A stretch of DNA of 37,727 nt from Candidatus Iainarchaeum sp. (GTDB taxonomy: Archaea; Iainarchaeota; Iainarchaeia; Iainarchaeales; DTGL01), in assembly GCA_021163505.1 (NCBI GenBank), contig JAGGVE010000018.1:1-37727 (forward strand). Direction: 5' to 3'. Below the pieces are notes generated by a model. The model did not search any database. It was not told the origin of the DNA and saw nothing but the letters and a program-made list of their open reading frames with translations. Positions 29,473 to 34,546 of the stretch are shown here, piece by piece; the stretch's first letter is position 1, and each line of letters opens with the position of its first letter. The translations under genes and the position numbers were made by a program.

Positions 29473-29760
29473 TTACTCTTTTTTATTTATTATTTCAAGC
29501 AGCTCTTCAACTATTTGTTTTGCTTCCTTCTCTTCAACATTCTTTACAAGGATTCTGCCGCTTTTGAAGAGGCTTACACTGGCGTTCTTAAAAAGGAAGA
29601 TTGTAACAAATGGTGTTTCTACTTGTAGCTGAGCGGTTTCTCTCAGCGCATTGGTTATTTCGCTGAGCTGGAGCTTCAGTTTCTTCTGTGGCAAAAATTC
29701 TATTGCTTTATCGCTCTTACAGGGATCTACGATAAAATCTTTAAGCTGGAGCTTGCTCAT
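29473..29760 (-). CDS. Small protein resembling a TBP half-repeat
   Basis: FVTIFLFKNASVSLFKSGRILVKNVEEKEAKQIVEELLEII; overlaps the aIF5A stop by 4 nt. Confidence 0.6.
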   Translation of the reverse strand: MSKLQLKDFIVDPCKSDKAIEFLPQKKLKLQLSEITNALRETAQLQVETPFVTIFLFKNASVSLFKSGRILVKNVEEKEAKQIVEELLEIINKKE

Positions 29761-30170
29761 TTTTTCTTACCTTCGCTGCTGGCCTTAATACGCAGAATCG
29801 CTGCTTTATCACCATAGCGCACATACTCAAGCTCAACGCCACTTTTTAGGCCCGTAAGGTCGGCAGGCTTTTTTACATTGAATAGCTCATAGTCTTTAAT
29901 ATCCATTATTTGCACTACATCGCCCATTAGTGCTACGAGCTGGGCGTTGCCGCGCTTTATTATTGGGACCTCAACTTCAGCATCTACAGGACCTAAAAAG
30001 GTGCGCTTCTGATTATCAAAAAGGCCTGTAGCTGTTATGCGCACCTTTGCAGAGCCATGCCTGCCAGGAGCGCTCTTTTCAATATTTTTAACCCTGCAAA
30101 CTTCGCCCTCTATAAGCACATAGTTTCCTTCTTTTAGCTGGCCAGCTTTTTTGAACATCTTTTCAGCCAT
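29757..30170 (-). CDS. Translation factor aIF5A (Arg at the hypusination position)
   Basis: GQLKEGNYVLIEGEVCRVKNIEKSAPGRHGSAKVRITATGLFDNQKRTFLGPVDAEVEVPIIKRGNAQLVALMGDVVQIMD aligns with archaeal IF5A. Confidence 0.93.
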   Translation of the reverse strand: MAEKMFKKAGQLKEGNYVLIEGEVCRVKNIEKSAPGRHGSAKVRITATGLFDNQKRTFLGPVDAEVEVPIIKRGNAQLVALMGDVVQIMDIKDYELFNVKKPADLTGLKSGVELEYVRYGDKAAILRIKASSEGKKK

Positions 30171-30303
30171 GAAAAGCACCTCCAAAGATTTAATAAAAAG
30201 CAGCTGATAAATGAATATAAGGATGTTGAATATTTATATCTCTTTCCATATATATTTTCCAGAGAAAAGAGAAATAGTATTCAACAGCCTTTCAGCATGC
30301 GTT

Positions 30304-30528
30304 TTAGAGTGCTATAAAAATTATATTGTCGCCTCTAACCATAATTTTGGGGTATTTCTCCTTTACGCTTTGTTCCTCATTGTTGGCGAGTTCCTCTGCA
30401 TTCTCTAGTATTATGTTGAGATGCACGTCAAAGGAAGCTAAAGTGCCTCTGACTATGCGGTCCCCTTTCAGTCGCACTAGTACCTGCTGCCCCAATACCT
30501 TTGTTAGTTCATCAAAAGGTCTTGTCAT
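30304..30528 (-). CDS. Sm-like archaeal protein (LSm/SmAP)
   Basis: RPFDELTKVLGQQVLVRLKGDRIVRGTLASFDVHLNIILENAEE...IMVRGDNIIFIAL (Sm1 and Sm2). Confidence 0.93.
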   Translation of the reverse strand: MTRPFDELTKVLGQQVLVRLKGDRIVRGTLASFDVHLNIILENAEELANNEEQSVKEKYPKIMVRGDNIIFIAL

Positions 30529-30537
30529 TCTTTCACC

Positions 30538-31326
30538 TCAGATTTTTTTTCTTTTGAATATTGATAAAATCCTTGAGAAAATAGAGCCCTTGCCTATATC
30601 CTCCGGCTCAACTTTTTTACCACTTATTTTGTTAGCTGCAAGCGTTATTGCCTTCGCAGCTGGTGAATCAGGCTTTCGCAGTATTATTGGCTGATTCCCT
30701 TTGCCAATAAATGTTTTTCTCACCTCTTTATCAAATGGAATTATTCCATAGCATGGCAGCTCCAGAATAGCACTTATCTCGTTTTTCTTTAATTCGCCCT
30801 TTTCACCATGTACCATGTTTATAATAAATCCGAATGGCTTTGAAAGCAAGCGTTGTGCAACAATCTTTGTTTTAAGAGCGTCAGCAACGCTAGGCGAATC
30901 AGGCGTAGTGATAATTAAAGCCTGCTTTGCGGAAGCTAGAGCAGCCAGTGTACTCCTTTCTATACCAGCAGGCACATCAAGCAATATATAATCATACCTG
31001 CTTTCCAAAGTGCTTACAGCCTGCTTCAGCCTTTCAGGATCAACGCGCCTGTAGCTTTCCAAGCTGAGACCGCTTGGAATTATTTCTACGTTTTGTGGTC
31101 CGGAGTAGATAGCATCTTCTATGTTTGCTTCACCCATAAGTACCTCATGCAATGTTATTGGTGAATTCTGAAGCTTGAAGATTAATGAGAGGTTTGCCAT
31201 CGCTACATCGGCATCTATTAGAAGCACCTTCGCATTGCTCATCGCTAACGCTATGCCAAGATTGGCGGTTATGGTTGTTTTTCCAACGCCGCCCTTCCCA
31301 GAAGCTATTGCAATACTTCTTGCCAT
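30538..31326 (-). CDS. minD: MinD/ParA family ATPase
   Basis: IAIASGKGGVGKTTITANLGIALA, LIDADVAMANLSLIF, DVPAGIERSTLAALASAKQALIITTPDSPSVADALK. Confidence 0.93.
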   Translation of the reverse strand: MARSIAIASGKGGVGKTTITANLGIALAMSNAKVLLIDADVAMANLSLIFKLQNSPITLHEVLMGEANIEDAIYSGPQNVEIIPSGLSLESYRRVDPERLKQAVSTLESRYDYILLDVPAGIERSTLAALASAKQALIITTPDSPSVADALKTKIVAQRLLSKPFGFIINMVHGEKGELKKNEISAILELPCYGIIPFDKEVRKTFIGKGNQPIILRKPDSPAAKAITLAANKISGKKVEPEDIGKGSIFSRILSIFKRKKI

Positions 31327-31434
31327 ATAAATCCTTACTCACATTTCTTTTGCAGTAAGTTAGTAAATAGTAGTAATTATTAAAATAAATACTTTTTGCA
31401 TCAAACAAATTCTCAAAATAATTAGTTGCAGGCT

Positions 31435-31926
31435 TTAATGTTCTGTAATGCCCGCAATGCCTGCTCTTTTGAAGATATCGTACTTTGTTACCTCTTCTTG
31501 CCGCTTTATCACATCCTTCGCATACCTATCCGAAAATTCTTTCGGATAAATCTTTTTCAGATTCTTCGGTTCTATCTTTAGGCTGATCAACATCTTTTCA
31601 TGGAATGCTGTTAGCAAATCCATATGCTGTGTTGTTAAGCTGTAAATATCAATAACCCCGTGCTTTGCTTTAAATGCATTCAACACAATTTCAAAAGCAT
31701 CGTTGCCTTCAATGGTTACGCCATACTTCATAAATTCGTAGCCAGCCCCAATAATTGCGCCATTCCTAAAAAGCATTGCGCCTTCTTCGATTCCATCATA
31801 ACCATTTATAGTTACCACAATATAACCAGTGAACTGCTTTTTCATAAGTTCTAGTATTGTATTTAACATATCAGCGTTGGCGGTCTTTAAGCTCTGCTGA
31901 AGTGGTACACCGAGGGGCAAATCCAT
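31435..31926 (-). CDS. Hypothetical protein, possibly DUF2226-like
   Basis: 163-aa ORF; MDLPLGVPLQQSL start and roadblock/PATAN-like middle (TGYIVVTINGYDGIEEGAMLFRNGAIIGAGYE). Confidence 0.55.
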   Translation of the reverse strand: MDLPLGVPLQQSLKTANADMLNTILELMKKQFTGYIVVTINGYDGIEEGAMLFRNGAIIGAGYEFMKYGVTIEGNDAFEIVLNAFKAKHGVIDIYSLTTQHMDLLTAFHEKMLISLKIEPKNLKKIYPKEFSDRYAKDVIKRQEEVTKYDIFKRAGIAGITEH

Positions 31927-32111: not shown

Positions 32112-32183
32112 GGGCCGGTAGTGTAGTGGTAACACGCGTCCTTGGCATGGACGAGACCCTGGGTTCGAGTCCCAGCCGGTCCA
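32112..32183 (+). tRNA. tRNA-Ala(GGC)
   Basis: GGGCCGG...CGTCC TTGGCAT GGACG...CTGGG TTCGAGT CCCAG CCGGTCC A; G3:U70 alanine identity pair; CCA not encoded. Confidence 0.95.
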
Positions 32184-34473: not shown

Positions 34474-34546
34474 TGGGCCCGGGCGGAATCGAACCGCCGA
34501 CCTCCTCCGTGTCAGGGAGGTGTCCTAACCACTAGACCACGAGCCC
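34474..34546 (-). tRNA. tRNA-Val(GAC)
   Basis: GGGCTCG TG GTCTAGTGGTTAGGAC ACCTCC CTGACAC GGAGGAGGTC GGCGG TTCGATT CCGCC CGGGCCC A. Confidence 0.95.

Follow-up and report, generated by a model that had tools for sequence, protein, structure and literature searches.

Ribosomes that stall on runs of prolines are rescued by IF5A and EF-P, whose loop-tip side chain lies near the CCA end of the P-site tRNA. Hypusine is regarded as a universal and essential feature of archaea and eukaryotes. A 2016 paper reported that every archaeal genome sequenced had a homolog of deoxyhypusine synthase (DHS) (PMC5178350), and according to PMC11611912 eukaryotes and archaea admit only Lys as the tip residue. Three known systems come closest to the factor described here. 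First, it resembles canonical aIF5A (structures 1bkb, 1eif and 1iz6; Haloferax volcanii) in being the same full-length protein with the same GxHG loop, encoded by a single gene at the ancestral locus of the order; the canonical factor has a modified Lys and a DHS, whereas here there is an Arg in a genome without DHS. Second, the EarP-rhamnosylated EF-P of some bacteria, homologous to IF5A, likewise carries Arg at the tip of this loop. Third, E. coli EfpL (YeiP) also has an Arg at the loop tip: Arg33 was found unmodified by mass spectrometry, yet the protein is functional and active on proline motifs (PMC11611912). Unlike the aIF5A described here, which is the sole IF5A of its genome and has a loop of normal length, EfpL coexists with canonical EF-P, of which it is a paralog, and its loop is prolonged.

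The gene lies in a window of 37,727 nt (the whole stretch of DNA analysed, contig JAGGVE010000018.1 of assembly GCA_021163505.1, Candidatus Iainarchaeum sp.); close relatives of the source genome, here G000, are named Candidatus Diapherotrites. The relevant features are as follows.

29473-29760, minus strand: 95-aa ORF with no Pfam family and a 4-nt overlap with the aIF5A stop
29757-30170, minus strand: single-copy gene for aIF5A (137 aa), with PF21485 and EFP_N matches and similarity to solved aIF5A structures
30045-30074, minus strand: modification loop SAPGRHGSAK, read directly
30060-30062, minus strand: AGG codon of Arg37 at the hypusine/deoxyhypusine Lys position, read directly and aligned to 1bkb/1eif and 100 relatives
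30178-30184, minus strand: Shine-Dalgarno-like motif GGAGGTG, 7 nt before the aIF5A ATG, read directly
30304-31926, minus strand: 74-aa Sm-like protein (named from sequence), MinD/ParA ATPase and DUF2226 protein, ancestral aIF5A neighbours in the order

Minus-strand translation of the aIF5A gene gives MAEKMFKKAGQLKEGNYVLIEGEVCRVKNIEKSAPGRHGSAKVRIT..., which matches IF5A-like_N (PF21485; E 1.2e-12), exceeds the TIGR00037 cut-off and aligns along its entire length with solved structures of archaeal IF5A (1bkb, E 2e-33; 1eif; 1iz6). Arg37 aligns exactly on the Lys of GKHG in these structures. The original prediction, that aIF5A carries Arg at the universally hypusinated Lys, is thus borne out by the codon itself, by the structure alignment and by six assemblies; alignment of related aIF5A proteins, which it had called for, also places Arg on the hypusine Lys column and not elsewhere. 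Ser33, Gly36, His38, Gly39 and Lys42 of the loop are as in Lys-type proteins, the remaining conserved columns are intact, and the loop aligns to that of Lys-type aIF5A without insertion, with no prolonged beta3-beta4 loop. A second, canonical aIF5A copy, which would have spoken against the prediction, is absent from the source genome (958,664 bases, 93.6% complete) by BLAST and TIGR00037. The ancestral aIF5A site of the order consists of MetRS, HtpX, an M50 protease, the 95-aa ORF, aIF5A, DUF2226, MinD and the 74-aa Sm-like protein (the MetRS, HtpX, M50 and Sm-like labels are putative, from sequences only), and aIF5A is kept among these neighbours in the Arg genomes, in the Lys genome G002 and in the outgroup G012. 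Most relatives in the family, and some other members of the order, have the 95-aa ORF beside aIF5A. Relative to G005, G024 and G012, the block of 74-aa protein, MinD and DUF2226 is inverted in the window, an inversion common to G003. Elsewhere in the window, tRNA-Ala(ggc) at 32112-32183 and tRNA-Val(gac) at 34474-34546 flank a 725-aa coiled-coil-like ORF. With full-length homology and a conserved genomic context, the window protein is, as judged from these comparisons, a member of the IF5A family by descent. The hypusine-containing class of IF5A is marked by Lys at the tip and a DHS gene, and the window genome has neither.

Arg occupies the hypusine position in six Candidatus Diapherotrites assemblies from three families: the source genome itself and G003, G004, G005, G014 and G024, whose proteins are 99%, 82%, 68%, 48% and 60% identical to the window aIF5A, respectively. 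G000, G003 (JAFCEU010000007) and G004 (JAGHBI010000077) belong to one genus, G005 to another genus of the same family, and G014 and G024 to two further families of the order; all six are draft metagenome-assembled genomes, 78-94% complete. Their Arg codons are AGG or AGA, a single A-to-G transition from AAG/AAA. Lys is found in all 95 of the other relatives whose loop could be read, and the Arg lineages always have Arg, never another non-Lys residue. Within the genus, Arg and Lys sister proteins are 75-77% identical. A DNA pattern for Arg-type IF5A, which in a set of 228 fetched loci matched none but the Arg ones, found no further Arg-type aIF5A in 395 archaeal genomes, small phylum scans being part of the search (altered loops would escape the pattern). 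The SK-to-SA change beside the Arg had been offered as an argument against a base error, and this argument fails: SA or SS precedes PG in Lys-type relatives as well (e.g. G081, G084-G091). That Arg is not a lone error follows instead from the independent Arg genomes.

The search for DHS that had been proposed gave a consistent answer: PF01916 has no match in the source genome or in the other five Arg genomes, while archaeal control genomes do match. DHS is present in 0/6 Arg genomes vs 88/95 Lys relatives (Fisher p 1.4e-6, with relatedness ignored; the survey took in 118 relatives, and the comparison covers those with a readable loop), and it is kept by Lys sister species in the same genus as Arg genomes. 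Across archaea, it was found in 261 of the 266 near-complete genomes in a survey of 395. Arg therefore goes with absence of DHS in the genomes examined, but the reverse does not always hold. Seven Lys relatives also have no DHS match, so absence of DHS alone does not force Arg; these genomes are mostly incomplete (65-85%, one 92%). The DHS-less genomes G298, G315, G383, G308, G345 and G124 all have Lys. Outside the class, a Lys loop with no DHS match occurs in two genomes of the same genus, G315 (L300; G315:C24:10235-10591; 91% complete) and G383 (L299; G383:C62:9766-10122; 85%), and in G298 (L302; 93%), where the Lys is possibly unmodified or the DHS diverged. Within the order, G040 (L063) and G057 (L066) of genus g32, 85% and 65% complete, have a Lys-type aIF5A and no DHS, a possible intermediate state. 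G001 has a divergent DHS-family paralog (L077 8080-9066, G001:C21) with about 21% identity to DHS, in which the SWGK motif was not found; a weaker second DHS-family match, of similar score, is present in G012 too. The polyamine route was considered as support and rejected: the patchy occurrence of spermidine synthase (PF01564) in both Lys and Arg genomes makes it uninformative.

The window protein is probably a functional aIF5A that is no longer (deoxy)hypusine-dependent, a putative unmodified Arg having replaced deoxyhypusine as in EfpL. The Lys that DHS aminobutylates would have become Arg by the single transition, with the DHS gene missing in the same lineages, and the charged Arg37 would substitute for deoxyhypusine. 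Of the codon differences between the aIF5A genes of G000 and G003, 19 are synonymous and 2 nonsynonymous, so the gene is under purifying selection. A PPP motif in ValS (TPPPT) is present in all six Arg genomes. Polyproline is not depleted relative to Lys relatives: the observed/expected ratio of PP is 0.77-0.92 in Arg genomes (0.34 in G003, a tiny sample) vs 0.68-0.95 in Lys genomes, a comparison of low power, and PPP is rare in both in the sampled sequence (seven genomes, about 60-220 kb each; 15 kb for G003). In E. coli EF-P without modification, K34R has about 20% activity, below the 50% of unmodified Lys, and A, M, N and Q at that position have none (PMC6544042). Because an unmodified Arg is only about 20% active there, some compensation is probably needed.

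It is less likely that Arg37 bears a novel modification whose enzyme is neither DHS nor EarP, in the way that some bacteria have rhamnosyl-Arg in place of lysyl-Lys. Modified Arg has this bacterial precedent, and the loop, His38 and the OB domain are well conserved, as if a precise function were maintained; however, no candidate enzyme travels with aIF5A, whose neighbours are ancestral and common to Lys relatives. Pro is found at position -2 in five of the six Arg proteins (Ala in G005), whereas EarP-type EF-Ps select against it (PMC6544042), and EarP itself (PF10093), which the original prediction had asked to be sought, was unmatched in ten genomes in a search without a positive control. Among the options first put forward (an unmodified Arg, an alternative Arg modification, or loss of DHS), loss of DHS is supported and EarP modification is not. 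There is little to recommend a further reading, that aIF5A function is decaying in reduced genomes, with stalling tolerated or relieved by some other factor and Arg left behind, nearly neutral, after the loss of DHS. The genomes are indeed small and the loop is partly relaxed (SA, SS and, in G005, A for P), but the excess of synonymous differences between G000 and G003 argues against decay, as do the retained ValS PPP, the level of PP relative to Lys relatives and the choice of Arg alone by all Arg lineages; the Arg proteins of the genus are 82-99% identical, with few genes of the region better conserved. Finally, an artefact, with DHS hidden by assembly or binning gaps or the codon wrong, is very improbable: the six genomes are all drafts and seven Lys relatives lack a DHS match too, but the Arg codon recurs in six assemblies, incompleteness alone would hide DHS in all six with a probability of about 2e-6, G024 has no DHS match although it is mostly one 853-kb contig, and DHS is found in Lys sister species of the same genus.

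An EF-2 tree of 26 genomes implies five changes between Arg and Lys, and a single Arg clade is rejected (AU test, p-AU 5e-31). With 12 concatenated genes from ten genomes, four changes are required; the well-supported pairings are (G004 Arg, G001 Lys) and (G002 Lys, (G000 Arg, G003 Arg)), and Arg as a single clade within the genus is rejected (AU test, p 0.0037). Residue and enzyme thus switch together four to five times on the species tree, although with only 4-5 independent contrasts a sign test cannot reach 0.05. The aIF5A tree computed without the loop (124 usable columns) joins G004 to G000/G003, separate from G002, and therefore conflicts with the species tree.

The Lys genomes of the group differ in where aIF5A and DHS are found. 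In G001, of the Arg-containing genus, and G006, of a sister genus, aIF5A is missing from the ancestral site, where the 95-aa ORF remains; in these genomes aIF5A(Lys) and DHS have been relocated as a pair, separated by about 20 nt, and the stretches compared have no further genes in common. In G002 the aIF5A at the ancestral site has Lys, and the nearest relatives of the G002 DHS, at 59% identity, are in genomes outside the class. This DHS retains the catalytic Lys, and its grouping with the DHS of G001/G006 is rejected (p 1.9e-5). G002 appears to have regained hypusination through a horizontally acquired DHS, and the foreign DHS together with the relocated operon of G001/G006 suggests that hypusination can be regained as well as lost. 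Several independent losses of DHS, with xenologous replacement in G002, would fit these data; so would a single earlier loss with subsequent regain in G001, G006 and G002. Parsimony is indecisive between the two; regain is somewhat favoured by the relocated operon and the foreign DHS. Tentatively, then, hypusination may be reversible in archaea: the ancestor of one Diapherotrites family may have lost DHS and exchanged Lys for an unmodified Arg, with later regain by a foreign DHS (Arg back to Lys) or by a mobile aIF5A-DHS operon.

No archaeal or eukaryotic IF5A without the Lys was encountered in the open-access literature searched, and the Arg aIF5As in genomes without DHS are natural exceptions to the stated universality of Lys and DHS. 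Loss, and possible regain by gene transfer, of a core translation modification is unexpected, and with closely related species in both states, the question of why IF5A needs hypusine becomes directly testable.
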